Shown: positions 22,678 through 40,186 of the stretch, one piece after another
Numbering within the stretch: the stretch's first letter is position 1
Layout of the letters: the number at the start of each line of letters is the position of its first letter
Assembly (NCBI GenBank): GCA_014874255.1
Contig: JACWAN010000018.1
Location: 1-40,289, forward strand
DNA from: Candidatus Woesearchaeota archaeon
Lineage (GTDB): Archaea > Nanobdellota > Nanobdellia > Woesearchaeales > UBA525
Reading direction: 5' to 3'
DNA length: 40,289 nt
The notes under the pieces: model-generated
The model's database searches: none
Seen by the model: the letters and a program-made list of their open reading frames with translations, nothing else
What the model was told of the DNA's origin: nothing
Position numbers and translations under genes: made by a program

Positions 22678-23856
22678 ATGACAGCGAAGAAGACAGCGAA
22701 AGGCGAGAAGGCGATTAAGGCCCCTGTGGCGGGCGCGCTCCGCCTCGCGCTCCTCTGCGACCAGGGCTGCGAGCCCGAGGCGGCGCTCGAGGCGAAGGAG
22801 CTGACCGGCCGCGCAGCCAGGAACGGCAAAGGCTATGTCGTCCTGGACGGCTGTACGCCGGACGACGTGGCGGCGCTCTGCTACCGCAGCCAGGCCGCCG
22901 CGCGCGTGCTGGCCTTCATCGCCGAAGGAAAGATTGCAGAGCCGGACGACCTCCTCCAAGCAGAAGAAACTATCCTCGGCTTCGACTATTCCCCCTATCT
23001 CAAGCACGGAGGAACGTTCAGGGCGACGTGCGAACGGCTCGGCGACCACAGCTTCCAGGCGCAGGAGATAGAACTGCTCCTCGGCGGCCTCCTCTACGAA
23101 GAGAAACACTATCCGGTCAACCTCGCCAAGCCGGACATGACGCTCTTCTGCGCGATCGATCACGACGCGTACGTCATCGGGATCGACCTGGCCGGCAGGG
23201 ACCTCGCGAAACGCGAATACCGGGCATTCCACACCAGACGATCATTGCGCGCGAGCGTCGCGTACGCCGCCGTCCGCGCCGCCGGCTACACCGGGAAAGA
23301 AACCCTGCTCGACCCGTTCATGGCCGAGGGCTCCCTCGTCATCGAAGCGGCCGTTTTCGGCTCCGGGACGAGCCCGCAACGCTTCCGGAAAGAGTTCGCC
23401 TTCCTCGCCATGCCCTTCGCCGCCAGCAGGGAATGGACATTCCCGGACAGCCAGCCGAAGAAGACGAACGTCACGGGATTCGCGCCGATGGTCTCCATGC
23501 TGAAGATGACGCGCGCCAACGCGAAGCTCGCCGGCGTGATTGACAGCTTCTCGCTGACGAAGTGCGAGATTGAATGGCTCGACACCAAGCTCGAGAAAGG
23601 GAGCGTCGACCTCATCGTGACGGTGCCGCCGCAGTCCGGGAAGAGCACGCCGCCGAAGGACGTCGAGAAGCGGCAGGACGACCTCTTCCACCAGGCGAAA
23701 TACGCGCTCGGGAAGAAAGGGATGGTCCTTCTTGTCACGGAGAAGAAGGCCGAGCTCCTCAACCCGGCGGAACGCCACGGCTTCTCCTTGCTGGAAGAGC
23801 GCGAGGCCTGGATGGGCGAGAAGAAACTCCTGTTCCTGGCGTTCGGGAAGAAGTAG
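22678..23856 (+). CDS. THUMP-domain class I methyltransferase (Trm14/RlmL-like)
   Basis: 392 residues. An N-terminal domain and THUMP region (about 30-165) precede a Rossmann methyltransferase domain (about 185-392). The joining segment LAKREYRAFHTRRSLRASVA and motif I, LLDPFMAEGSLVIEAA, match the family that methylates guanine N2 in tRNA or 23S rRNA. The catalytic N/D-P-P-Y motif is altered to TVPPQSGK (about 320), so activity or target may differ. The start at 22678 has GAGGAG just upstream and a TATA box (TTTTTAAACC) about 25 bp earlier; an earlier ATG lies inside the S1 stem. The 3' end overlaps the DGR reverse transcriptase gene by 98 bp, tail to tail. Confidence 0.82.
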   Translation: MTAKKTAKGEKAIKAPVAGALRLALLCDQGCEPEAALEAKELTGRAARNGKGYVVLDGCTPDDVAALCYRSQAAARVLAFIAEGKIAEPDDLLQAEETILGFDYSPYLKHGGTFRATCERLGDHSFQAQEIELLLGGLLYEEKHYPVNLAKPDMTLFCAIDHDAYVIGIDLAGRDLAKREYRAFHTRRSLRASVAYAAVRAAGYTGKETLLDPFMAEGSLVIEAAVFGSGTSPQRFRKEFAFLAMPFAASREWTFPDSQPKKTNVTGFAPMVSMLKMTRANAKLAGVIDSFSLTKCEIEWLDTKLEKGSVDLIVTVPPQSGKSTPPKDVEKRQDDLFHQAKYALGKKGMVLLVTEKKAELLNPAERHGFSLLEEREAWMGEKKLLFLAFGKK

Positions 23857-24931
23857 GGGACTGGAGCAGTTCTATTTGCATCTCTGTCTCGATGCCGAGT
23901 TTCCGTCGCAATTGGTAGGTGTTCGCGTGTCGTGCGTAGGCGCTCCAGCCCTCGAGCGTTTCACGAATACGTTCCGGTTCGCTTACGCTGCGTTTGCAGG
24001 ATGCGATAAGCCGCGTCACCCTCGTCTTGATGCTCCTGATGTTCCGTTTTCTCGGTAGTTTGTGGCGATAGAAGACGCGGTAACCGAGGAGCGGGACTCC
24101 TCTTCGGAGTGGGATGATGGCGCTCTTCTCCGGATGGAGAGCGAGGAGCAGCTCCTCTTCGAGGAATGCGGCGATCTTCTTCTTGTACTCTGCAAGGACT
24201 GCCGGCGAGACGTGCATGATGATGAAATCATCGACATAACGCACATAATATCTTGCTTTGAGCGTGTGCTTGATGTACTGGTCCAGTTCGTCGAGGTAGA
24301 TGTTCGCAAAGAACTGGCTCGTCCAGTTCCCGAGCGGCATGCCTTTTCCCGGCGTGCCCGAGTCGTAGTTTTCCAGGATAGTCCTTGCCAACCAGAGGAT
24401 ATCCTCGTCCGGAACCCGTTTTTTGATGATGCCGATGAGCGTTTCGTGGTCGACCGTATCGAAGTAATGTCGGATGTCTGCTTTCAATGCGTGGCCGATG
24501 ACATCGTTTCCGTTTCGCGCTATCGCTCTTGTCCGTCCGTTCTTCGTGACCCTTTGTTTGAAGTCGTCGAAGCGGCGCAGTGCGGGGAGCGTCCCCTTAC
24601 CTTTCCTGCTCGCATAACTATCATGGATAAATCTCGGCTCGTAGATCGGCTGGAGGATGTTGACGAGCGCGTGATGGACGACGCGGTCGCGGAACGCGCT
24701 GACGCTGATGATGCGCGTCTTTGGGTCGCGCAGGACGAATTTCTTGAGCGGCGCAGGTCGGTACGTCCGCTCGAGGAGCTCTTTCCTGAGATGGACGAGA
24801 TGGAGCCGCCAATGCTCGTCGAACTCCAGGACGCAGGATTTGCTCGCCTTGCCTTTTCGCGCTCGCCAATAGGCGCGTTCGAGATTCTCGAGCGAGAAGA
24901 GCTGTCTGCCGAGGTGGCGGTATGTTCTCAT
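23759..24931 (-). CDS. DGR reverse transcriptase
   Basis: 390 residues. This enzyme copies the template-repeat RNA into cDNA with errors at adenines; the cDNA then replaces the variable repeat. The N-terminus RQLFSLENLERAYWRARKGK is typical of DGR enzymes. Catalytic Asp152 lies in KADIRHYFDTVDH, and YVDD is at 232-235. Motif 4 reads PLGNWTSQ (199-206), with SQ as in DGRs rather than the SP of group II introns. No maturase or endonuclease domain is present. The ATG at 24931 is preferred over 24961, which would run into the template repeat. Residues 359-390 are read antisense to the methyltransferase gene and look non-conserved (Pro/Ser/Arg-rich). Confidence 0.93.
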   Translation of the reverse strand: MRTYRHLGRQLFSLENLERAYWRARKGKASKSCVLEFDEHWRLHLVHLRKELLERTYRPAPLKKFVLRDPKTRIISVSAFRDRVVHHALVNILQPIYEPRFIHDSYASRKGKGTLPALRRFDDFKQRVTKNGRTRAIARNGNDVIGHALKADIRHYFDTVDHETLIGIIKKRVPDEDILWLARTILENYDSGTPGKGMPLGNWTSQFFANIYLDELDQYIKHTLKARYYVRYVDDFIIMHVSPAVLAEYKKKIAAFLEEELLLALHPEKSAIIPLRRGVPLLGYRVFYRHKLPRKRNIRSIKTRVTRLIASCKRSVSEPERIRETLEGWSAYARHANTYQLRRKLGIETEMQIELLQSPTSSRTPGTGVSSRPSRPRALPARRSRGVPPG

Positions 24932-24953
24932 TGTGTCCCGTCGCGGGGGAGGC

Positions 24954-25047
24954 CATTCCACGGACGCGGCTGTTGTTGTTGGCTTGCTCGTTGGCGTTCA
25001 GGTTGTTGAGGTTGTTGTAGTTGTCGCCGCCGAGGCACGCAAGCCGG
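24954..25047 (-). repeat. DGR template repeat (TR)
   Basis: 94 bp, nearly identical to 25285-25384. On the minus strand it is dense in AAC codons (GACAACTACAACAACCTCAAC...), the usual TR design, since AAC can mutate to 15 residues without a stop. It lies 22 bp before the reverse transcriptase ATG and behind the variable-protein gene, the common order VP–TR–RT. All substitutions to the VR fall on TR adenines (13 outside the gapped run), including two in the 3' end (GGAATG against GGGGTG). Confidence 0.95.
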
Positions 25048-25136
25048 CCGTTGTAGCCCCCTCACCTTTCATCCTTCACTGCCGTTCCACTGGTTCTGCC
25101 GCCTCGTCTCGACGCGGGTACTGGATGTCGCGGCTG

Positions 25137-25199
25137 CATTTCATGACAGGAATGTCCTGCCGTGATGAAGGGACGTGTGGCCCCTCGCCGCATCGCGGC
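25137..25199. repeat. Hairpins in the DGR spacer
   Basis: TTCAT (25140-25144) with ATGAA (25165-25169) encloses CAGGA/TCCTG (25147-25151 with 25155-25159). A second hairpin, GCCGC-ATC-GCGGC, lies at 25187-25199. It has the same 5-bp stem as the hairpin beside the VR (25271-25283). In the transcript these would fold upstream of TR. The 195-bp spacer (25048-25242) contains no gene that I can support and may be part of the structured TR RNA. Confidence 0.5.
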
Positions 25200-25242
25200 A
25201 GGGACGAGATGAGAAAAAGATGTTGATATAAAATGTTTGCGA

Positions 25243-29675: not shown

Positions 29676-31229
29676 TCAACGTGTTTTTCCGTCTTTTTCA
29701 GGGGTTTTTCTTTCCTTCTTCGGAGCGGTCTCCGGAGCGGTCTTCTCACCAGCCTTCTTCTCATCCCCCTCAGTCTTCCTCGGCGGTTTCGCCAGGTCTT
29801 CCATGCGCGGGATCGGGAGGTGGAACCGCTTCGGGAAGTGATCGGGGATGTGCGAGATCGAGCGCGTCGTCCGCCGGACGCCCTCGCCGACCGTGTCATC
29901 CATGAGCGCGGTGAGCGTGCCTTCGCGGCGATGGTAGTGCGGCTCGCTCTCCTGGATCCGCTTCCCCGTCTCGATGTCGAGACTGGAAGATTTCTTCATC
30001 GAGAGGACCTGGCTCGGATAGACGCTGCGATGCCCGGTCATGATGAAACTGATGACGCACGCCACCATCGCATAAGGAGCGAGCTTCGCGCCGAACAATT
30101 CGACGGAGAGGATGCTCGCCGCGATGGGTGTATTGGTCGCGCCCGCCAGGACGGCGACGAGGCCGATGGCCGCGAACGTCGCCGGGTCGAGCCCCATGAA
30201 GTGCGCGAAGACGCTGCCGGCAGCGGCGCCGACGAACAGGACCGGCGTCACGATGCCGCCGCTCCCGCCGAAGCCGAGCGTGATCCCGGTGAAGACCATC
30301 TTGAGCAGGAAGGCGTACCAGACGACCGCGCTGCCGGTGAGGGCGCCGTTGATCGTGTCCATCCCCAGTCCCAGGTATTGCGTCGAGAAGACGAGCGCCA
30401 AGGCGGAAAGCACGAGGCCGGCGACGAGGGCCTTCACCCAGTCCTGGCCCGGCAACGCCTTGGCTGCCGTTTTTGTCCGGCGGAGCACCTCGATGAGGAG
30501 GAAGGTGCACAGCCCGAAGAAGATGCCGGCGATCACCACCTTGATGAAGAACGATTCGGTGAAGACCGGGACGAAGTCGATCGGATGATAGAAGTACGGG
30601 ATGCCGAGCGCGGAGGAGACGCCGTACGCGGTGATGCCGGCGATGAAGCTCGGCAACAGGACTTCGTAGAGGAGGCTGCCGACGAAGAGGACCTCGATGC
30701 CGAAGACGGCGCCCGCGAGCGGCGTGCCGAACACCGCTGCGAAGCCTGCGCTGATGCCGCAGATGGTGAGCTTCCGCACATCGTCCGAGTCGAGGCGGAA
30801 GATGCCGCCGAAGATTGAGCCGATCGTCGCGCCGATGTCCGCTGCCGGCGCTTCCTTGCCGACGGAGCCGCCGCCCGCGATGGTGATGATCGGGGCGAAG
30901 AACGCGGTGACGAGCGACCAGCCAGGGATCCGCTTGAACTTGTGGATGTACTCGATCACCTTGTCCGTCGTGTGCGCATCCCCTGACGGGAGGATGTACT
31001 TGAGGAAGAGGACGTTCGCGACGAGCGCGACCGGCAAGAGGATGTAGAACGGCACGGCGAGGTTGGCCGCCTTGATCGACCAGTCGAGCGCCTTGACGAA
31101 GAGCGTCGTGCTGAGGCCGATGATGATGCCGATGACGGTGGCGAGGACGAACCACTTGAAGATGCTGACGAAGATGACGCTCTCCTCGGTGAAGTGGCTG
31201 TTCACGTCGTAGAAGAAGTCCTTCTTCAT
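29676..31229 (-). CDS. ClC-family chloride channel or H+/Cl- antiporter
   Basis: 517 residues with the helix pattern of ClC proteins. The selectivity motifs are GGGSVGKEAPAADIGATIGS (canonical GREGP region, here GKEAP), FAAVFGTPLAGAVFGIEV and GFGGSGGIVTPVLFVGAAAGS (canonical GGxFxP). The C-terminus (about 440-517) is a long charged tail rich in Lys/Glu/Pro without CBS domains. Altered filter residues leave the ion and the channel/antiporter choice open. The TATA box lies in CATTTTTAAG just before the ATG. Confidence 0.9.
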   Translation of the reverse strand: MKKDFFYDVNSHFTEESVIFVSIFKWFVLATVIGIIIGLSTTLFVKALDWSIKAANLAVPFYILLPVALVANVLFLKYILPSGDAHTTDKVIEYIHKFKRIPGWSLVTAFFAPIITIAGGGSVGKEAPAADIGATIGSIFGGIFRLDSDDVRKLTICGISAGFAAVFGTPLAGAVFGIEVLFVGSLLYEVLLPSFIAGITAYGVSSALGIPYFYHPIDFVPVFTESFFIKVVIAGIFFGLCTFLLIEVLRRTKTAAKALPGQDWVKALVAGLVLSALALVFSTQYLGLGMDTINGALTGSAVVWYAFLLKMVFTGITLGFGGSGGIVTPVLFVGAAAGSVFAHFMGLDPATFAAIGLVAVLAGATNTPIAASILSVELFGAKLAPYAMVACVISFIMTGHRSVYPSQVLSMKKSSSLDIETGKRIQESEPHYHRREGTLTALMDDTVGEGVRRTTRSISHIPDHFPKRFHLPIPRMEDLAKPPRKTEGDEKKAGEKTAPETAPKKERKTPEKDGKTR

Positions 31230-31607: not shown

Positions 31608-31961
31608 TCACTCGCCCTGGAGGCTGAGGATGGCGGCCGCGAGGTCGCCGTCCGCGGCTTCGATGGCCGCGCGCGCCTCCGCTTCCGAGACGCCGGCCTG
31701 CTCCGCAACGGTCTGGACGTCGTCGTCGCTGATCTCGGCCTTCGTGTCCAGGGATTGCTCGGTGCTCGGTCCGGCAACCTGCCAGGTGTCCTGGCCCATC
31801 ATGTTCACCTTGGAGACCTGCGCCGGCTCGATGACGATCTTCCGGGAGGAGCAGACGATCTCGACGCGTTCCACGTCGTCGAGGTCCACCTGCTGGATCC
31901 CCATCTGCTTCATCATCTGCTTCATCTGACGGGGATTGACGCCGGGGATCACTGCGCTCAC
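31608..31961 (-). CDS. nac: Nascent polypeptide-associated complex protein (archaeal NAC)
   Basis: 117 residues. NAC domain (about 20-72: GIQQVDLDDVERVEIVCSSRKIVIEPAQVSKVNMMGQ) followed by a C-terminal UBA domain (about 80-117: DVQTVAEQAGVSEAEARAAIEAADGDLAAAILSLQ). Archaeal NAC is a ribosome-bound homodimer that contacts emerging chains. Its ATG overlaps the stop of the upstream sec61-beta gene (ATGA), linking it to translocation. This is a firm archaeal marker. Confidence 0.95.
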   Translation of the reverse strand: MSAVIPGVNPRQMKQMMKQMGIQQVDLDDVERVEIVCSSRKIVIEPAQVSKVNMMGQDTWQVAGPSTEQSLDTKAEISDDDVQTVAEQAGVSEAEARAAIEAADGDLAAAILSLQGE

Positions 31962-32137
31962 CCGAGCCCGAACCAGGCCGTGCCGTAGAGGTGGAGAAGA
32001 ATCTCGAGGACGATGATGAGGATCGCGATGCCGACGACATACTCGGGTCGCATCTCGATCTTTGTCTTGACCTCGTCCCAGTACTGCGTGATGCCCGCCG
32101 TCGAAGACGGCATCCGGATCTTGTCGTCGCGTGCCAT
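31958..32137 (-). CDS. Preprotein translocase Sec61 subunit beta
   Basis: 59 residues: a cytoplasmic N-terminus with MPSSTAGITQYWDEVKTKIE and one C-terminal membrane helix, VVGIAILIIVLEILLHLYG, the standard archaeal Sec-beta form. It is the non-essential small partner of the SecYE channel. It heads an operon with NAC. A strong TATA box lies at 32159-32168. Confidence 0.9.
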   Translation of the reverse strand: MARDDKIRMPSSTAGITQYWDEVKTKIEMRPEYVVGIAILIIVLEILLHLYGTAWFGLG

Positions 32138-32158
32138 GCCTGCGAAGAACCCGCGCCG

Positions 32159-32168
32159 TTTTAAAAAG
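32159..32168 (-). promoter_or_regulatory. TATA box of the sec61-beta–nac operon
   Basis: CTTTTTAAAA on the minus strand, 22-31 bp before the ATG at 32137; leaderless or near-leaderless mRNA. Confidence 0.6.
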
Positions 32169-32234
32169 GTAGCGCTTCGGGAGGCGGCGTTAGACACTTC
32201 ACGACCGGGACGTCGTCCGGCTTCTTCAGGCAAA

Positions 32235-32421
32235 CCGAACAAGAGGCTCTTAGGCAAATTCGCTTCGCGGTGTTGCCGGCTGCGACCCGTATCGCTTCGT
32301 TCCTTTCTGCATCGTTGAAGCCCCGGATGGGGCATCCCCCTCAACTCTTCGCTTCTTCTTATCGCTACGGGTCGCCCTTTGGCCGGCGACACATCATTTG
32401 CCAAAGAGCCCGAACAAGAGG
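32235..32421 (+). repeat. Structured repeat family S2, copy C, flanked by 12-bp direct repeats
   Basis: The outer stem is 32245-32259 with 32396-32410 (two 7-bp halves around an A·A mismatch). The second stem is 32270-32280 with 32382-32392 (11 bp with one U·G). The third is GCGACCCGTA/TACGGGTCGC, 32282-32291 with 32366-32375. GTTGA/TCAAC encloses the hairpin and CATCCCCCT motif. CCGAACAAGAGG is repeated exactly at 32235-32246 and 32410-32421, at the two ends of the element. It lies between the divergent sec61-beta and hydrogenase-like operons; no gene in this gap. Confidence 0.65.
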
Positions 32422-32424
32422 AAG

Positions 32425-32433
32425 GTTTAAAAG
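32425..32433 (+). promoter_or_regulatory. TATA box of the hydrogenase-4-like operon
   Basis: GTTTAAAAG lies 92 bp before the first ATG (32525), which would leave an mRNA leader of roughly 65-70 bases, longer than other leaders here. Confidence 0.45.
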
Positions 32434-32524
32434 GGGGTGGCTTCAACCGCGCCGCTCGCGGAGGAAAAGCGCATCCCGGCAAGGTAAGGTTCTCGGGTGC
32501 GCCGCCGTCGAAGGAAAAGAAGAT

Positions 32525-34465
32525 ATGATTGCGACTCTTGCGTATCTGGCCCTCGGACTGCTCCTCCTCCCCGCACTCGCGCCGCTCCTCGCCTTCCTGA
32601 AGGACGGCAGGGCAGGAAGGAAGGCGTTCCTCACGGCGATCGGAATCGCGGCCCTCCTCCTCACGGCGCTCGCGGCGTACGTCCTCTACACCGGGACGCA
32701 GCTCCTCCTGCCGCTCTACGACCTCGCGCCCGGGCTCGGCCTCACGCTCCTCGTCGATCGGCTCTCCGCCTTCTTCATCCTCATCATCGCGGTCGTGGCC
32801 TTCGCGGTCGCGATCTACTCCGCCGGCTACGTCGAGCACCTCAAGTCCCCCGTCCGGAAGAACCTCCTCATCGCGCTCATGAGCATCTTCGTCCTCTCCA
32901 TGGTCCTCGTCATCTCGGCGAAGGGCATGGTAGGATTCCTCTTCTCATGGGAGCTGATGTCGCTCGCCTCCTTCCTCCTCGTCAATTTCGAGTATGAGAA
33001 GAAAGGGACGCGCAAGGCCGGTCTCTATTACCTCGCCATGACGCAGCTGAGCACGGTCTTCCTCATCGCCGCGACCGGCGTCATCTACGCGCAGACCGGC
33101 TCGTTCGACCTCCAACGCGTCGCGTTCTCCTCGCCCTTCTGGGCGTCGCTCGCGTTCCTGTTCGCCTTCCTCGGCTTCGGCATCAAGGCGGGCATCGTGC
33201 CGTTCCATAAGTGGCTGCCGTACGCCCACCCCGCCGCGCCATCGAACATCTCCGCGCTCATGTCCGGCCTGATGATCAAGGTGGCGATCTACGGCCTCGT
33301 CCGCTTCCTCCTCACCGTGCTCCCGCCCGGCCCGGTCTGGTGGGGCATCCTCCTCCTCACGGCAGGCACGGTCTCCGCCATCCTCGGCGTCATCTACGCG
33401 CTCAAGGAGCACGACCTCAAGCGGCTGCTCGCGTACCACAGCATCGAGAACATCGGCATCATCGTCATGGGACTCGGCCTCTTCGAGATCTTCTCCGCCG
33501 CCGGCCTGCACGCGGTCGCGCTGCTCGCCCTGGGCGGCGCGCTCTTCCACACCCTGAACCACGCCCTCTTCAAGAGCCTCCTCTTCCTCACCTCGGGCTC
33601 GGTCTTGAACGCGACGAAGACCATGAACATCGAGCGGATGGGCGGCCTCTCCGCACGCATGCCCGGCACGGCTGCACTCTTCCTGATCGGTGCGGTCTCC
33701 ATCTCCGCGCTGCCGCCCTTCAACGGCTTCGTGAGCGAGCTGATGCTCTTCGAGGCGTTCTTCCAGGCGTACCTGCTCGCCAGCCCCTACCTCCAGATGC
33801 TCCTCGTCATCGCGTTCTCCGTCTTCGCGCTCACCAGCGCCCTCGCCGCGGCGTGCTTCGTCAAGGCGTACGGCGTCGTCTTCCTCGGCGTCCCCCGGTC
33901 GAAAGAGGCCAAGGAGGCGAAGGAGGCGCCGCGCAGCATGCTCGCCGGCCCGGCGGTGCTCGCGGCCCTGTGCATCGTCCTCGGCCTCTTCTCCTTCCAG
34001 CTCTTTGCGATAGCGGGGTTCAGTTTCCCCGTCCCTGACCTGCTCGTCGTCGGCCTCCTGCTCCTCGCCGTCTACGCCCTGACGGCCTTCGCGCTCCGGA
34101 ACGTCGGCAAGCGACGGACCTGCGAGACATGGAGCTGCGGCTATCCGTCCGCGGGCAGCGTGGCGGAGTACACCGCCTCCGGGTTCTCCGAGCCGATCAT
34201 CCGCATCTTCGACGCGATCTTCCTCCCGAAGCTCACGGTCGAGCGCGAATACCACGACGGCCAGAAGGCGCTCTTCAAGCGCGGCACAGCCGAGATGAGG
34301 CTGATGCGGTTCTTCGAGGAGTACCTCTACGACCCGGTCGCGCGGGCCGTCGAGAAGGCCGCCGCCTTCGTCGCCCGGCTGCAGGACGTCGACCTCGACC
34401 TGTACGTCGCCTACATCTTCGTCTCCGCGCTGCTCCTCATCATCGTCGCGAGGTTCCTCATATGA
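32525..34465 (+). CDS. hyfB: Hydrogenase-4-like antiporter subunit (HyfB/NuoL-like)
   Basis: 646 residues, an antiporter-like ion-pumping subunit of complex-I-type enzymes. The key charged residues are in place: Glu in FSWELMSLASFLLV (TM5), Lys in GFGIKAGIVPFHKWLPYAHP (TM7) and the Lys/His group in KEHDLKRLLAYHSIENIGI. The C-terminus carries the RRTCETWSCGYP segment usual in HyfB. It starts a six-gene operon in which each gene overlaps or nearly touches the next. It would move H+ or Na+ through the membrane. Confidence 0.93.
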   Translation: MIATLAYLALGLLLLPALAPLLAFLKDGRAGRKAFLTAIGIAALLLTALAAYVLYTGTQLLLPLYDLAPGLGLTLLVDRLSAFFILIIAVVAFAVAIYSAGYVEHLKSPVRKNLLIALMSIFVLSMVLVISAKGMVGFLFSWELMSLASFLLVNFEYEKKGTRKAGLYYLAMTQLSTVFLIAATGVIYAQTGSFDLQRVAFSSPFWASLAFLFAFLGFGIKAGIVPFHKWLPYAHPAAPSNISALMSGLMIKVAIYGLVRFLLTVLPPGPVWWGILLLTAGTVSAILGVIYALKEHDLKRLLAYHSIENIGIIVMGLGLFEIFSAAGLHAVALLALGGALFHTLNHALFKSLLFLTSGSVLNATKTMNIERMGGLSARMPGTAALFLIGAVSISALPPFNGFVSELMLFEAFFQAYLLASPYLQMLLVIAFSVFALTSALAAACFVKAYGVVFLGVPRSKEAKEAKEAPRSMLAGPAVLAALCIVLGLFSFQLFAIAGFSFPVPDLLVVGLLLLAVYALTAFALRNVGKRRTCETWSCGYPSAGSVAEYTASGFSEPIIRIFDAIFLPKLTVEREYHDGQKALFKRGTAEMRLMRFFEEYLYDPVARAVEKAAAFVARLQDVDLDLYVAYIFVSALLLIIVARFLI

Positions 34466-35406
34466 ACTGGCTCTTCGCGCTCTACTTCGTCCTGAACACC
34501 GCCGTGGCGGTGGCGCTCGCGCCCCTGCTCATGGGCGTCGTGAAGAAGGTCAAGGCCTGGGCGCAAGGACGGCGGGGGCAGCCGCTGCTCCAGCCGTACT
34601 ACAACCTGGCGAAGCTGCTGCGGAAGGAGACGGTCGTCTCGTCGAACGCCTCGTGGGTGACGAGGGCGACGCCGTACCTGAGCATTTCCGTCCTCATCGT
34701 CGCGACGCTCTCCGTACCGCTCCTCTTCCTGCCGGGCAAGACCTCTGCATTCGGCAACGTCATCCTGTTCTTCTACCTCCTCGCGCTCGCGAACTTCTTC
34801 ATGGCGCTCACCGGGCTCGACGGCGGCAGCACCTTCGGCGGCATGGGGAGCTCGCGCGAGATGTCGCTCTCCGCCATCCTCGAACCGCTCGTCCTGCTCA
34901 CCTTCCTCACCCTCGCGTTCGTCTTCAAGACGTTCGACATCTTCGGGATCGTCGGGACGACGTCGCAGGCAGGCATCTTCTCGGTCGACCCCGTCCTCAT
35001 CCTCCTCGGCGCGGCGTTCTTCGTCATCATCGTCGCGGAGACCGCGCGGTTGCCCGTCGACAATCCGGAGACGCACCTCGAGCTGACGATGGTGCACGAG
35101 GCGATGGTGCTCGAGCACTCCGGCAAGCACCTCGCCCTCATGGAGACGGCGCACGCGATCAAGCAGCTCCTCCTCATGGCGCTCTTCATCAACATCTTCC
35201 TCCCCTTTGGTTTCGCGACGCAGCCGACCGCCGCGTCGGTCGCGCTCTCGCTGCTGAGCTTCCTCGCGAAGAGCATCATCCTCGCGGCAGCCATCGGCCT
35301 CTTCGAGTCGTCCGTCGCGAAGCTGCGGCTGTACCGCGTCCCGGGCTTCTACGCCGTCGGGACGTTCCTCGTCGTCCTCACCATCATCCTGGAGGTGTTC
35401 CGATGA
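34462..35406 (+). CDS. hyfC: Hydrogenase-4-like membrane subunit (HyfC/NuoH-like)
   Basis: 314 residues, about eight membrane helices. The NuoH-family signature ETARLPVDNPETHLELTMVHEAMVLEHSG is intact, as are GRRGQPLLQPYYNLAKLLRKE and RLPV. This subunit joins the membrane pump to the peripheral arm and forms the E-channel in complex I. The start ATG overlaps the hyfB stop (ATATGA). Confidence 0.94.
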   Translation: MNWLFALYFVLNTAVAVALAPLLMGVVKKVKAWAQGRRGQPLLQPYYNLAKLLRKETVVSSNASWVTRATPYLSISVLIVATLSVPLLFLPGKTSAFGNVILFFYLLALANFFMALTGLDGGSTFGGMGSSREMSLSAILEPLVLLTFLTLAFVFKTFDIFGIVGTTSQAGIFSVDPVLILLGAAFFVIIVAETARLPVDNPETHLELTMVHEAMVLEHSGKHLALMETAHAIKQLLLMALFINIFLPFGFATQPTAASVALSLLSFLAKSIILAAAIGLFESSVAKLRLYRVPGFYAVGTFLVVLTIILEVFR

Positions 35407-36086
35407 TCGATCCCGTCTTCGCGCTCGACCTCATCAAGATACTCCTCGTCCTCATCGTGCTCAGCGCGGCGCTCATCATCACGCGCCGGGACTTCATCGC
35501 CCTGACCTCGCTCTACGCAGCCCAATCATTCCTCATCGTCCTCCTCTCCGTCGGGCTCTTCGCGATCGACCGGAATCCCCTGCTGCTCATCATCGCGGCC
35601 ATCACGCTGCTCAGCAAGGTCGTCATCATCCCTTTCATCCTCACGAAGGTGCAGCGCCGGCTGAAGATGAAACGCGAGATCGAGTTCAGCCACCTCTCCC
35701 CCATCGGGGCGATCCTCCTCGCGGTCGTCGCGTTCTTCTTCATCTACGCGCTGTTCTCAGGCATCCTTTCAGGGCTCGACAAGGGCGTGCTCTCCACGGT
35801 CGTCTCGCTCGCCATCTGCCTCGTCTTCATGGGACTCATCATCATCTTCACGCGGAAGCAGACCATCACGAACGTCATCGGCTACCTCACCATGGAGAAC
35901 GGCGTCCTGCTCTTCAGCCTCTTCGTCGCCGAGCTGTCGCTGCTCATCGAGGTTCTCATCCTCCTCGACCTCATCATGCTCATCGTCCTCGTCGCGCTCA
36001 TGGCGTTCGGCATCGACTCCAGCATCGAGGAGTTCCACTCCCAGCTCAACGTGCTGGACCGGTGGCTCGGGAGGGAGCAGCGATGA
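35403..36086 (+). CDS. hyfE: Hydrogenase-4-like membrane subunit (HyfE/NuoK-like)
   Basis: 227 residues. The NuoK-like part is in the second half: ITNVIGYLTMENGVLLFSLFVAEL with the conserved Glu, then IEVLILLDLIMLIVLVALM. The first half has three to four extra helices, as in HyfE. The ATG overlaps the hyfC stop by four bases. It should form part of the ion path next to HyfC. Confidence 0.92.
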   Translation: MIDPVFALDLIKILLVLIVLSAALIITRRDFIALTSLYAAQSFLIVLLSVGLFAIDRNPLLLIIAAITLLSKVVIIPFILTKVQRRLKMKREIEFSHLSPIGAILLAVVAFFFIYALFSGILSGLDKGVLSTVVSLAICLVFMGLIIIFTRKQTITNVIGYLTMENGVLLFSLFVAELSLLIEVLILLDLIMLIVLVALMAFGIDSSIEEFHSQLNVLDRWLGREQR

Positions 36087-37546
36087 TCTTCCTGCTTCTC
36101 TTCCTGGTCGGCGCGGCCGTCCTCGCCCTCGTCCTCCTCTCGCGCTCGCACCGCGTCATGAATGTCCTCTCGCTCGCGCATGCGACTGCGTACGTCGGCA
36201 TCGTCGCCTACGCGCTCGCGCGGCTGCCGCTGCCCCTGCACGCGGACGGCAGCGACTACCTCTTCCTCGACCATCTGGGCGCGTACGAGATCCTCGTCGC
36301 GTCCGTGGTCTTCTTCCTCGCCGCGCTCTACCTCGAAGGCTACATCGAGAGCCTCATCCGCGCCGAGGAGCTCCCGAAGCGCAACCTGCGGCTCTTCTAC
36401 GTCGCCATGAACCTGCTGCTCATCGCGACCGCGTTCAGCTTCGCCTCCGACAACCTCGCGGTCTTCTGGATCTTCCTCGAGCTGACGACGCTCTTCTCCG
36501 CCGTCCTCGTCGTGACGCTCAACGCGAAGGAGAACATCGACGTCGCCCTGAAGTACATCTTCATCGCGTCCACCTCGATGCTCTTCTCGTTCATCGGAAT
36601 CATCCTCCTCTTCTTCCTCTCGGCGCAGGCGACCGGCACGGGCACCCTGGAATGGAGCGCGCTGATGCTGCACGCCGCGACGTTCTCCCCCGCGCTCCTG
36701 CTCGTGAGCTTCCTCTTCATCCTCATCGGCTTCGCCGCGAAGTCGGGCATCGCGCCGTTCCACACCTGGCTGCCGCACACCCACGCGAAGGCGCCGTCCG
36801 CGGTGAGCGTGGTGCTCTCCGGCGCGGTCGTGAACATGGGCATCTACGGCATCCTGCGGGTCTTCGCCATCGTGCACCAGACGTCGGCGCTCACCGCCGC
36901 CTCCTGGTTCCTGATCGGCTTCGGCATCTTCAGCGTCGCCGTCGCATCGCTCAGCATGCTCCGGCAGCGCAACACGAAGAGGATCATCGCCTTCTCGAGC
37001 ATCGAGCACATGGGCGTCATCCTCGTCGGCATCGGCATCGCGACGCGGACCTCGGTCTTCTGGTCGCTCGCATACGTGCTCGCGCACTCCCTCGCGAAGT
37101 CGCTCCTCTTCTTCTCCGCAGGCATCATCAACCGGCAATACGAAAGCAACGAGGCGGAGGACGTGCGGGACATCTTCCGCCTGCAGCCGCTGGCCTCCCT
37201 CGGCCTCATCGTCGGCAGTCTCACCATCGTCGGCATGCCGCCGTTCCTCCTCTTCCTGCCGAAGCTCTTCATCATCATCGAGCTGGGCAAGGTGTCGCTC
37301 CTCCTCTTCTTCCTCCTGATGCTCTTCCTCCTCATCGCCGTCGTCGCCTTCGGCGCCTTCATGATGCGCCTCTTCTCCGCGGTCCCCGAGGCCGGGAAGC
37401 AGGAGCGCATCCCCCGTTTCCCGGTCCCGGCGAAGATGAGCCTCACCCTGGCGATCCTCATCACGCTCGTCCTCGCCCTCGGTCTCTGGTTCCCGTCATA
37501 CGTGCAGCATGTCATCGACGCGATCGTGACGGAGTTGAGGTTCTGA
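36083..37546 (+). CDS. hyfF: Hydrogenase-4-like antiporter subunit (HyfF/NuoN-like)
   Basis: 487 residues, the second antiporter-like subunit. The key Glu is in FWIFLELTTLFSA, the key Lys in GFAAKSGIAPFHTWLPHTHAKAPS, and further polar residues in RQRNTKRIIAFSSIEHMGVI. Two antiporter-type subunits in the operon predict at least two ion-translocation paths. A four-base overlap joins it to hyfE. Confidence 0.93.
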   Translation: MIFLLLFLVGAAVLALVLLSRSHRVMNVLSLAHATAYVGIVAYALARLPLPLHADGSDYLFLDHLGAYEILVASVVFFLAALYLEGYIESLIRAEELPKRNLRLFYVAMNLLLIATAFSFASDNLAVFWIFLELTTLFSAVLVVTLNAKENIDVALKYIFIASTSMLFSFIGIILLFFLSAQATGTGTLEWSALMLHAATFSPALLLVSFLFILIGFAAKSGIAPFHTWLPHTHAKAPSAVSVVLSGAVVNMGIYGILRVFAIVHQTSALTAASWFLIGFGIFSVAVASLSMLRQRNTKRIIAFSSIEHMGVILVGIGIATRTSVFWSLAYVLAHSLAKSLLFFSAGIINRQYESNEAEDVRDIFRLQPLASLGLIVGSLTIVGMPPFLLFLPKLFIIIELGKVSLLLFFLLMLFLLIAVVAFGAFMMRLFSAVPEAGKQERIPRFPVPAKMSLTLAILITLVLALGLWFPSYVQHVIDAIVTELRF

Positions 37547-39108
37547 TGGTCGACCCGCTGTTCGAAGAGATGGGCAAAGTGGTCCCGGAAGGGCTGCTGA
37601 AGGGGTCATGGGAAGGGAAGGACGGCGCCATCTACCTCCCGCTCCCGGAGGACGCGTTCGGCGGCGTCATCAAGGGCTTCGTGGAGAAGGGGCTCGTCCT
37701 CGTCGGCCTCTTCTGCGAGGAGGGCTTCCGGGAAGGCGAGCGCTTCACGCTCCTCTACGTCTTCGAGAAGCGCGGGTACGAGCGGCTCGTCGTCCTCCTC
37801 CGCGGCCTCGGGGAGGGGCGCGCCTCGTCCGTGGCGAGGGACTTCCCTTCGGCGTCCTGGTACGAACGCGAGATAACGGACGGCTTCGGCATCGCCTTCC
37901 CCGACGGCCCCGACGGACGGCCGCTCTTCCTGCACGAGTGCTACCCGGACGGCTTCCATCCCCTCCGCAAGAGTCAGGCACGGCCGCGGGAGGCGCAGAA
38001 GCGCACGGCGTACGCGTTCAAGGAGGTGACGGGGGAGGGCGTCTACCAGATCCCGGTCGGACCGGTCCACGCAGGCATCATCGAGCCCGGCCATTTCCGG
38101 TTCAGCGTGATTGGCGAGACCGTCCTCGCGCTCGAAATCAGGATGTTCTTCAAGCATCGCGGCATCGAGAAGCTCGCCGAGGGGAAGACGTCTGAGGAGG
38201 GCGTCCTGTTCGCGGAGGCGATTAGCGGCGACGAGAGCGCCGCGAACAGCACCGCGTTCTGCGAATGCGCCGAGCGCATCGCCGGCACGCGGCTGCCGGC
38301 ACGCGCACAGCACCTGCGGACGGTCCTGCTCGAGCTGGAGCGCATGTACTCGCATCTCGGCGACCTCGCCGGCATGGCGGTGGACGTCGCCTACCCGGTC
38401 GGCGCGTCGCCGTTCCTCGTGCTCCGCGAGGAGCTCCTGCGCCAGAATCGCGCGCTCACCGGATCGCGGTTCCTGAAAGGCGCGATCGTGCCGGGCGGCC
38501 TGCGACGCGACCTTCCCAGGGAGGCGCTCGCAGCGCTCGGAGCGTACCTCCCGTCGTTCATGGAGCGGTTCGTCGAGGCGGCGAAGGGCATCCGGTCAAC
38601 GCCGCTCGTCATCGACCGGTACGCAGGCACCGGCATCGTCCGGCGGGAACTCGTCAAGCCGCTCAACCTCTCCGGCCCCATCGCGCGCGCCTGCGACGTC
38701 CGCATCGACACGCGCGCCGACCACCCGTACGGGCTCTACGCCGCGATGCGGTTGACGCCGAGGCTGCAGCAGGACGGAGACGTCCTCGCCCGCTTCGAGG
38801 TGAAAGCAGAGGAGGTTCTCGCCTCCGCGACAATAATCCTACAACTCCTCGAGAGATTGCCCGACGGTCCGGTGCGAACGCGGTGCGCGTCCAAGAACGG
38901 ATACGCGCTCGCGCTCGTCGAGGCGCCGCGAGGGCAGAGCATGCACTATCTGCATCTTCGCAACGGGACGATCGTCCGCTATAAAGTGCGGACCGCTTCG
39001 TTCTGCAACTGGCAGGCGATTGAGCACGCGGTGCCGGGCAACATCGTCCCGGATTTCCCGCTCATCAACAAGAGCATGAACCTCTCGTACGCCGGCACCG
39101 ACCTATGA
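37546..39108 (+). CDS. hyfG: Hydrogenase-like large subunit (HyfG/NuoCD-like) lacking all Ni ligands
   Basis: 520 residues. Residues 1-145 are the NuoC-like part (WYEREITDGFGIAFPDGPDG, HECYPDGFHPLRK), and the rest is the large-subunit/NuoD-like part (FKHRGIEKLAEG). The first Ni motif, C-G-x-C, is S-G-D-E (227-230), and the second, C-x-x-C, is S-Y-A-G (514-517). The fold is kept but no [NiFe] site can form. This is the defining trait of energy-converting hydrogenase-related (Ehr) complexes. Its start shares one base with the hyfF stop. Confidence 0.93.
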   Translation: MVDPLFEEMGKVVPEGLLKGSWEGKDGAIYLPLPEDAFGGVIKGFVEKGLVLVGLFCEEGFREGERFTLLYVFEKRGYERLVVLLRGLGEGRASSVARDFPSASWYEREITDGFGIAFPDGPDGRPLFLHECYPDGFHPLRKSQARPREAQKRTAYAFKEVTGEGVYQIPVGPVHAGIIEPGHFRFSVIGETVLALEIRMFFKHRGIEKLAEGKTSEEGVLFAEAISGDESAANSTAFCECAERIAGTRLPARAQHLRTVLLELERMYSHLGDLAGMAVDVAYPVGASPFLVLREELLRQNRALTGSRFLKGAIVPGGLRRDLPREALAALGAYLPSFMERFVEAAKGIRSTPLVIDRYAGTGIVRRELVKPLNLSGPIARACDVRIDTRADHPYGLYAAMRLTPRLQQDGDVLARFEVKAEEVLASATIILQLLERLPDGPVRTRCASKNGYALALVEAPRGQSMHYLHLRNGTIVRYKVRTASFCNWQAIEHAVPGNIVPDFPLINKSMNLSYAGTDL

Positions 39109-39146
39109 ACGACGCATGAATGATCAACGCAATGAGGGATGGAACG

Positions 39147-39698
39147 ATGAAGGACGCCGTGAAGAACCTGCTGGGACGGAAGATCGCCGGAGACGCGGCC
39201 GTCCCGACTGACAGGACCGATGAGGAGTTCGAGCGTCTCGGCCATGAACTCAGGAAGGAGGTCTCATCCATCTTCGGCCGGAGCCTCGCCATCAGGGAGG
39301 TGGACACGGGGAGCGACAACTCCCCCGAGATCGAGCTCAACAATCTCACGACGCCGCACTACGACATCGAGCGCTTCGGCGTCTCCTTCGTCGCCTCCCC
39401 GCGGCACGCGGACGCGCTCGCCGTGACGGGGCCGGTCACCCGCAACATGGCTGACGCGCTCCGGCGGACGTACGACGCGACCCCGGCGCCGAAGCTCGTC
39501 ATCGCCATCGGGGACGACGCCTGCGACGGCGGCCTCCTCAAAGGGTCGTACGCGGTGCTCGGCGGCGTGGACAAGGTGCTGCCGGTCGACCTCAAGATCC
39601 CGGGGAACCCGCCGACGCCCGAGGAGATCATGCGCGGGCTGCTCCGCCTCATGGCGGCCATACGCGACCGCAAGGCCACGCAACACAAACATCGCTAA
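39147..39698 (+). CDS. hyfI: Hydrogenase-like small subunit (HyfI/NuoB-like) lacking all cluster Cys
   Basis: 183 residues from the ATG at 39147 (GAGGGATG upstream; ATGs at 39120 and 39132 are alternatives). The fold is clear: EIELNNLTTPHYDIERFGVS, VASPRHADALAVTGPVTRNM, GGVDKVLPVDLKIPG and PPTPEEIMRGLL. The four cysteines that hold the N2-type [4Fe-4S] cluster are changed to Asp57, Pro60, Asp124 and Asn154 (SDNSP for SCNGC; GDDA for GDCA; PGNPP for PGCPP). One unrelated Cys remains (126). No ferredoxin-like subunit gene follows, so the complex has no visible electron path. Confidence 0.92.
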   Translation: MKDAVKNLLGRKIAGDAAVPTDRTDEEFERLGHELRKEVSSIFGRSLAIREVDTGSDNSPEIELNNLTTPHYDIERFGVSFVASPRHADALAVTGPVTRNMADALRRTYDATPAPKLVIAIGDDACDGGLLKGSYAVLGGVDKVLPVDLKIPGNPPTPEEIMRGLLRLMAAIRDRKATQHKHR

Positions 39699-39736: not shown

Positions 39737-40186
39737 ATGGTCCGCGTCAACCTCGTCGATCCGTCCGTGCTGACGGACCAGCATCTCGTCGCGGAATATG
39801 ATGAGATATTGATGCTGCTCGGCTACGTCAGACGGTATCCGTCGCGGGAAGGGATCCCGTCCTCGTACCGGCTCGGCAAGGGGCACATCCTCTTCTTCAA
39901 GGACAAGCTGGTCTATCTCAAGAGACGGCACGGACTCCTGAAGACGGAGATGCGAAAAAGGGGATTCAGACCTACGAGAACGATTACGTTGAACGAGTTC
40001 CCGAAGAGCCTGCGGAACGACTGGACGCCGAGAGAGAAGGATTACGAGATCATCAAGACGCGGCTGCGCGAGAAGCTGGAGAAGAAACCCGCGTATTACC
40101 GCTATTACGGAAAACACGAGAGCGAAGCATTCTTACGGGGACTATTGGATGAACCTCCCCGGGCTAAAGCCCGGGGTATCTGTTGA
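39737..40186 (+). CDS. Pyrimidine-dimer DNA glycosylase (T4 endonuclease V-like)
   Basis: 149 residues. It should remove UV-made cyclobutane pyrimidine dimers and nick the strand (base excision). The match to T4 DenV runs end to end: MVRVNL at the start, LTDQHLVAEYDEI with Glu20 and catalytic Glu23, LGKGHILFFKDKLVYLKRR and EKLEKKPAYYRYYGK. Residue 2, whose alpha-amino group is the nucleophile, is Val instead of Thr. The last 15 or so residues (to PPRAKARGIC) are coded by the palindromic end of an IS200/IS605-type element, so the native C-terminus was probably replaced on insertion. Confidence 0.88.
   Translation: MVRVNLVDPSVLTDQHLVAEYDEILMLLGYVRRYPSREGIPSSYRLGKGHILFFKDKLVYLKRRHGLLKTEMRKRGFRPTRTITLNEFPKSLRNDWTPREKDYEIIKTRLREKLEKKPAYYRYYGKHESEAFLRGLLDEPPRAKARGIC
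40157..40176. mobile_element. Terminal hairpin of an IS200/IS605-type element
   Basis: CCCCGGGC-TAAA-GCCCGGGG, a perfect 8-bp stem with a 4-base loop at the boundary between the endonuclease V gene and the transposase fragment. Subterminal hairpins of this kind are the recognition ends of IS200/IS605 elements. Confidence 0.65.

Follow-up and report, generated by a model that had tools for sequence, protein, structure and literature searches.

The DNA analysed here (the window) is the whole of a 40,289-nucleotide stretch of the Candidatus Woesearchaeota contig JACWAN010000018.1, and a single plus-strand operon at its positions 32525–39698 encodes, in this order, homologues of HyfB, HyfC, HyfE, HyfF, HyfG and HyfI, the subunits of a hydrogenase-4-like membrane complex (Table 1). 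The original prediction, made from the sequence alone, had placed the six genes in one overlapping operon, and gene coordinates and profiles bear this out: end-to-end overlaps of a few bases link the first five genes, from HyfB to HyfG, and 11–38 bases precede HyfI. Pfam and NCBIfam profile searches identify five subunits clearly (Proton_antipo_M, NADHdh, Complex1_30kDa/49kDa and Oxidored_q6). The assignment of HyfE rests on its top-scoring profile and on its operon position, which is constant in all complete operons. HyfB and HyfF pass the curated cut-offs of the 'hydrogenase membrane subunit' models NF006418 and NF006427, respectively. Among solved structures, the nearest relative of HyfG is HycE of the Escherichia coli formate hydrogenlyase (7z0s_E; 4.7e-69 across 425 residues), and HyfI matches best to Pyrococcus MbhJ (6cfw_J; 3e-30). 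For HyfI, 39147 is a likelier start than 39120: M10 is nearly invariant, and relatives begin at the matching Met. HyfI residues are nevertheless numbered below from 39120, i.e. on the 192-residue open reading frame (ORF).

None of the four Ni-ligand positions of HyfG, and none of the four positions of HyfI that would ligate the proximal [4Fe-4S] cluster, is occupied by Cys. As originally predicted, the Ni motifs CGxC and CxxC of the large subunit have become SGDE (HyfG 227–230) and SYAG (HyfG 514–517), and the cluster Cys of the small subunit are replaced by D57, P60, D124 and N154 when counted from the 39147 start, that is, D66, P69, D133 and N163 in the present numbering. Scanning the proteins of 85,462 species genomes yielded 34 loci with 49–59% identity to HyfG; three phyla were also surveyed (349, 251 and 247 genomes), which, together with plasmid-borne relatives, supplied extra members and outgroups. 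Among the 54 clade members compared, organohalide-respiring Dehalococcoidia included, a cluster or Ni Cys is retained in none. The replacement motifs, GSDN, GD(D/E)AC and IPGNPP in HyfI and SGDE and NLSYxGxDL in HyfG, are found clade-wide, in all 54, and HyfI G64 and S65 and HyfG L520 are further positions with 100% conservation. Since identical motifs recur in all 54 members, chance is excluded as their source, and drift is unlikely because Cys to Asp and Cys to Asn each need two base changes. HyfG has 0 residues past the mature end in 54 of 54, i.e. no protease-cleaved C-terminal extension; 10 of 23 Cys-containing relatives carry such an extension, 19–32 residues long. The only soluble-arm Cys conserved at 95% or above are HyfI C135, HyfG C487 and HyfG C239 (97%); these three are scattered, and therefore no cubane ligand set is left.

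Table 1. Genes of the Hyf-like operon, sites discussed in the text and neighbouring features of the window
Feature	Position	Strand	Support or conservation
HyfB-like antiporter-type subunit, 646 aa	32525-34465	+	PF00361 4.9e-54; NF006418 861 bits (cut-off 794)
HyfC/NuoH-like membrane anchor, 314 aa	34462-35406	+	PF00146 1.1e-37
HyfE-like membrane subunit, 227 aa	35403-36086	+	NF008556 (hydrogenase 4 membrane subunit) 6.7e-16, under cut-off
HyfF-like antiporter-type subunit, 487 aa	36083-37546	+	PF00361 2.3e-47; NF006427 600 bits (cut-off 511)
HyfG-like large subunit, fused 30-kDa and 49-kDa domains, 520 aa	37546-39108	+	PF00329, PF00346
HyfG E180-P-G-H183, equivalent to Mbh Glu21/Lys24 of the beta1-beta2 coupling loop	38083-38094	+	alignment to 6cfw_L
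HyfG S227-G-D-E230, in place of first Ni motif CGxC	38224-38235	+	S 94%; G, D, E 100% of 54
HyfG S514-Y-A-G-T-D519, in place of second Ni motif CxxC	39085-39102	+	S, Y, G, D 100%
HyfI/NuoB-like small subunit, 192-aa ORF	39120-39698 (likely start 39147)	+	PF01058 8.2e-25
HyfI D66...P69, former first CxxC cluster ligands	39315-39326	+	D66 54/54; 69 is T/A/P/V, never C
HyfI D133, former third cluster ligand	39516-39518	+	D 94%, rest mostly E
HyfI N163, former fourth cluster ligand	39606-39608	+	N 98%, one D
Reverse transcriptase	23759-25216	-	RVT_1 2.2e-20
RT-16 RNA	25048-25216		Rfam, 61.1 bits
CLC-type chloride channel/transporter	29676-31229	-	
NAC	31608-31961	-	
Sec61-beta domain	within 31958-32839	-	
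Pyrimidine dimer DNA glycosylase	39737-40186	+	PF03013

Of the features that characterise group 4 [NiFe] hydrogenases (the NiFe Cys set, the proximal cluster ligands and, in many members, the C-terminal extension) the clade possesses none, and the tandem Cys of the N2 cluster in NuoB, a feature of complex I, is gone with the other cluster Cys. What it does possess is a hydrogenase-4-like gene set with antiporter-like subunits and a large subunit without NiFe ligands, the latter being the definition used for Ehr complexes (PMC6349859, PMC10432482). Ehr are an established group, and, by the Ni-ligand definition applied to its sequence, the window complex is a member. It resembles other Ehr in its six-subunit layout, in lacking Ni ligands, in a large subunit that mostly reads SGD(E/S/T) and SYxG(N/H/T)DL, and in having no C-terminal extension; it differs from them in the small subunit. 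That Ehr commonly keep the small-subunit cluster was taken as background in the original prediction; the trait is usual, though no part of the stated definition, and it holds for 28 of the 28 other Ehr sampled, all of which have the four cluster Cys and lack the Ni ligands. These comprise archaeal complexes from Thermoproteota, probably ammonia-oxidising archaea (L067–L075, L077), complexes on proteobacterial and actinobacterial plasmids (L045–L047, L049–L051, L053), and L054, L116–L119, L121–L123, L138, L139 and L142. The exception is Allomeiothermus silvanus (L048, plasmid pMESIL01), in which an Ehr has lost all four cluster Cys independently (NTGLDDTE, GNEAIGG, PGSPARP).

In a tree of HyfG plus HyfI (trait columns masked; quick method, no bootstrap) the cluster-less complexes form one group of 34 thinned rows, none with cluster or Ni Cys, with a Shimodaira–Hasegawa-like approximate likelihood ratio test (SH-aLRT) value of 100 and a stem of 0.68. 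Closest to them stand bacterial Ehr whose clusters are intact, on a branch with an SH-aLRT of only 80. The large-subunit motif of most other Ehr is very similar to that of the clade, and since the nearest intact-cluster Ehr have the same motif, the clade-specific change is the loss of the electron wire: the Ehr-type state of the large subunit is ordinary, and the loss of the wire is the new element. Judged by its ligands, then, the complex has lost both the [NiFe] site, as have all Ehr, and the proximal [4Fe-4S] cluster, the only path by which electrons are known to reach the large subunit. The Ehr literature, in the parts examined, states the missing Ni ligands (PMC10432482, PMC10284858, PMC4378227, PMC6349859, PMC7304191) and makes no mention of small-subunit cluster loss; the defining paper of Marreiros et al. 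2013 lay outside those parts and may hold an earlier mention. As far as the examined Ehr literature goes, a subfamily lacking any metal site is new.

One of the other Ehr-like operons, L054 on the Burkholderia cenocepacia plasmid NZ_CP073671.1 (NuoH, HyfE, large subunit, NuoB, NuoL), lies inside a fluoride island. Genes for CrcB, DUF190, CLC and pyrophosphatase belong to this island, which has seven fluoride riboswitches, among them one immediately upstream of the NuoH gene. A fluoride link for the clade was considered and dropped, since searches of the window and of 18 clade loci turned up no fluoride riboswitch.

No electron input was seen in or around the operon either. In keeping with the original prediction, no ferredoxin-type gene is present in the operon and none recurs beside more than 30 relatives; nor does the operon contain NuoE/F/G or FpoF-like genes for input from NADH or F420H2, and profile searches found no flavin or ferredoxin domain in any of the six subunits. 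Clustering of 403 flanking ORFs from the 30+ loci revealed no functionally conserved partner gene, so that the idea of a hidden one was rejected, and no recurrent flavin or dehydrogenase gene was seen near the operon in these loci; most recurring neighbours mirror shared ancestry inside Methanosarcina or Methanoregula. The lack of any electron wire that could be traced to HyfG strongly suggests that the complex carries no electrons, and this part of the original prediction gains in strength; of the three alternatives that it offered in place of redox chemistry, an ion exchanger, a gated channel or a pump driven by another reaction, the evidence leans towards the first and goes no further. A rather improbable alternative is that the complex is still an oxidoreductase with another cofactor, be it a flavin, a mononuclear metal on carboxylates, or a diffusible two-electron donor or acceptor that binds directly between HyfG and HyfI. 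Every solved relative is a redox enzyme, the Asp/Asp/Asn set could bind a mononuclear metal, and HyfI C135 and HyfG C487 are invariant, all of which would fit such an enzyme; however, the missing domains, cluster ligands and conserved nearby partner speak against it, as does the fact that the removal of the wire is the very change that sets the clade apart from the nearest Ehr.

The 34 loci from the protein scan belong to Methanosarcina, Methanoregula, Bathyarchaeota, Altiarchaeales, Woesearchaeota, one Thermoplasmatota metagenome-assembled genome (MAG) and Dehalococcoidia MAGs. In Methanosarcina the complex is present in 19 of 31 species, and the whole operon could be read in a closed genome of 5,751,492 bp (L160/L167), which we take to be M. 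acetivorans C2A and in which the locus (L167) lies near 5.39 Mb; NF006418 exceeds its cut-off in one of 14 control genomes, likely that of M. acetivorans. Among Chloroflexota hosts, 10 of 12 have reductive-dehalogenase matches, nine of them with 19 to 50. One closed genome of 1,469,720 bp (L103/L168), presumably D. mccartyi 195, carries the full operon at ~1.41 Mb with all eight Cys replaced, together with 19 reductive-dehalogenase matches. Gene order is constant wherever the contig is long enough, and the six-gene set is nearly always complete and stands alone.

Purifying selection acts strongly on all six subunits, with pairwise ratios of nonsynonymous to synonymous substitution rates (dN/dS) of ~0.04–0.31 in seven usable close pairs (an eighth pair was saturated). 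Of the two observations that would have refuted the original prediction, clade members with intact Cys and relaxed selection across the operon, neither was made, and a local degeneration is ruled out by the clade-wide fixed replacements and these dN/dS values. That the operon is a degenerate hydrogenase-4 heading for loss has, in our judgement, a negligible probability. Its patchy spread could be read in this way: close homologues occur in 0 of 5 same-genus genomes and in 4 of 97 relatives at the order level or nearer. Against it stand the same low dN/dS and motifs that are fixed throughout the clade in two domains of life; the patchiness may perhaps reflect horizontal transfer.

In the host assembly, which spans 1.29 Mb and is 81.5% complete, we found neither the hydrogenase-maturation gene HypD nor a second complex I-type large subunit. 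A catalytic subunit of a rotary ATP synthase (alpha/beta-type, PF00006) was not found there either, which incompleteness may partly explain; a PF00006 match over cut-off is also absent in four of five congeners and present in one congener and in other family members. Three members of the same family or order (L008, L009, L010) encode a NuoB with ordinary cluster Cys, i.e. a separate complex I-like system, with NuoB fused to a NuoC-like domain in L010 and apparently also in L008 and L009. As for the neighbourhood of the operon in the window, the glycosylase gene lies directly downstream, and the NAC and Sec61-beta genes separate the operon from the upstream CLC gene. Further away, the reverse transcriptase with its preceding RT-16 RNA constitutes a retroelement or retron-like unit inside an archaeal genome.

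A similar conversion of the small subunit has happened elsewhere. Six Chloroflexota hydrogenase-4-like complexes (L106–L109, L113, L120) show the reverse mosaic: the large-subunit Cys are kept (CGAC/CAAC and CYxC, within ELCYxCxDR; no C-terminal extension), while the small-subunit cluster ligands are lost and replaced by D/(D,E)/(D,S) in the motifs GSDN, GDEAC or GTDAC, and PG(D/S)PP. By its ligands, this would be a metal site without an electron wire. The closest relatives of the six (L110–L112, L114, L115) have kept the cluster. An origin shared by all Asp-type small subunits was rejected (p-AU, from the approximately unbiased test, 8.8e-5), and the Chloroflexota six may represent one event or two (p = 0.128). 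The independent Asp/Glu/Ser replacement in Chloroflexota suggests that the vacated cluster site has a function, and the parallel swaps at ligands 1, 3 and 4, to D, D/E and N/D/S, suggest that the resulting carboxylate/amide site is useful, e.g. for a hard divalent cation or for proton carriage.

Such a site could also serve chemistry other than redox. Ion flow may power, or be powered by, a reaction that the SGDE/Asp-Asp-Asn pocket binds or catalyses; hydration of CO2 is one candidate, other hydrolytic or group-transfer steps are further ones, and the DabAB/MpsAB CO2-uptake complexes would be the model. We regard this as unlikely while taking it seriously. A passive cap would not require residues as rigidly conserved as these replacements, and at three Methanoregula loci (L034, L036, L037) a beta-carbonic-anhydrase-like gene, recognised by sequence and not by profile, lies divergently 1–1.8 kb upstream. 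However, these three loci are close kin and the arrangement may be mere synteny, the other loci have no co-conserved enzyme gene, and no known catalytic motif is recognised in the pocket.

In contrast to the metal sites, the residues expected of an ion pump are intact, as the original prediction had it: E143, K221, K252, E308, K350 and E405 in HyfB; E133, K220, K299, E308, K339 and K394 in HyfF; and the HyfC signature E193, R196, D200, E207, E213 and E218, with 22 charged residues at least 95% conserved clade-wide. The same holds for the connection to the soluble arm. For Mbh it has been proposed that the membrane arm receives the redox signal through Glu21 and Lys24, both in the beta1-beta2 loop, and through Asp379 near the Ni site (PMC11228991). 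Among 55 complexes lacking both the small-subunit Cys and the Ni ligands, the equivalents of these residues in HyfG are kept as E180 in 52, H183 in 55 and D519 (Mbh Asp379) in 55. The predicted monomer structure of HyfG has a predicted local distance difference test (pLDDT) score of 80 and a template modelling (TM) score of 0.84 to E. coli HycE, and according to this model the large-subunit fold is retained; the HyfI model is weak (pLDDT 63) yet matches the MbhJ and NuoB chains.

The complex might, alternatively, act as a regulatory or assembly partner, or as an alternative membrane arm, of another respiratory complex, a reading to which we assign a very low probability. Some clade hosts do encode other complex I-type large subunits. 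In addition, a second HyfB-C-E-F set that lacks G and I is present at locus L013 (L013:15814-20840). This set lies ~4 kb downstream of a full operon of the cluster-less kind and is followed by an opposing superoxide-dismutase-like gene; nearly all invariant residues, and all the invariant charged ones of HyfC, are kept, and parts may therefore be shared. On the other side, several hosts including that of the window (G000, G104–G106) show no other large subunit of this type, and, as noted, the six genes nearly always form a full set that stands by itself. We likewise refuse to take the L013 copy as proof of an arm-free exchanger, as the charged HyfC residues are all kept and the set may share HyfG and HyfI.

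Our preferred explanation, to which we give about an even chance, is that the cluster-free Ehr subfamily is an electron-independent ion translocator, performing Mrp-like exchange gated by a carboxylate/amide pocket. We lean towards an exchanger given the preserved coupling residues, the two antiporter-like subunits and the lack of a second conserved enzyme. What remains of the machine would be a two-channel antiporter arm with its mechanical link to the soluble cap intact. Ions would be translocated through HyfB and HyfF, most likely by proton-coupled cation exchange as in Mrp antiporters, and the hydrogenase-like HyfG/HyfI cap would act as a gate or sensor. Asp/Asp/Asn and Ser-Gly-Asp-Glu would line a pocket at the former cluster sites, in which either protonation or binding (perhaps of a hard divalent cation) could be the trigger; this trigger would move the beta1-beta2 loop and the Glu180/His183/Asp519 network, the one moved by redox chemistry in Mbh.

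Several points weigh against this explanation. Transport, substrate and ligand are all predicted from sequence, and a non-cubane cofactor (flavin, mononuclear iron) may be compatible with it too. No pocket is seen in the monomer models, where pLDDT falls below 50 in the interface loops at HyfG 155–204, 495–508 and 512–520 and at HyfI 148–163. Finally, the MrpE/F/G-type subunits that Mrp antiporters need are absent, so that Mrp-like exchange is to be understood as an analogy.

Mrp Na+/H+ antiporters, which work without redox, share the antiporter fold and the conserved Glu/Lys with HyfB and HyfF, but beyond these two the operon has no other Mrp genes (MrpB/C/E/F/G), and it retains HyfC and the hydrogenase-like arm. 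Pyrococcus Mbh (6cfw) has the closest counterpart of HyfI in MbhJ and shares the Glu21 and Asp379 equivalents, whereas the window complex has His at the Lys24 position and lacks the NiFe site, the Fe-S chain and a separate Mrp module. Hydrogenase-4 and formate hydrogenlyase (E. coli Hyf/Hyc, 7z0s) agree in subunit order and folds; unlike them, the window complex is devoid of Ni ligands, the proximal cluster, HyfA/HyfH-type ferredoxin subunits, HyfD and the C-terminal extension.

The comparison extends to the 'Hyc hydrogenase' of D. mccartyi, which is counted among the hydrogenases of that organism (PMC2930330, PMC6113397, PMC8516407) and reported in its proteome (PMC6113397). Its hycC and a second gene are listed as 'hydrogenase membrane subunit' (PMC8516407), the name of the models matched by HyfB and HyfF of the window. 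From its sequence, this complex very likely belongs to the cluster-less Ehr and is then not a hydrogenase; the name looks wrong.

In complex I and its relatives, the way in which ion transport is driven by redox chemistry is a matter of debate. We consider it an evenly balanced proposition that the complex I superfamily has a whole branch without electrons, including complexes of M. acetivorans and D. mccartyi that are classed as hydrogenases, in which an Fe-S site was converted, more than once, into a carboxylate/amide pocket gating an ion exchanger. If this is true, ion movement and electron transfer would be set apart in a natural relative that shares the coupling loop and membrane arm but has no redox centre, and the coupling mechanism would become directly testable, including in the genetically tractable M. 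acetivorans, an apparent host. Metabolic models, in which the D. mccartyi 'Hyc hydrogenase' is routinely counted in H2 metabolism, would be corrected.

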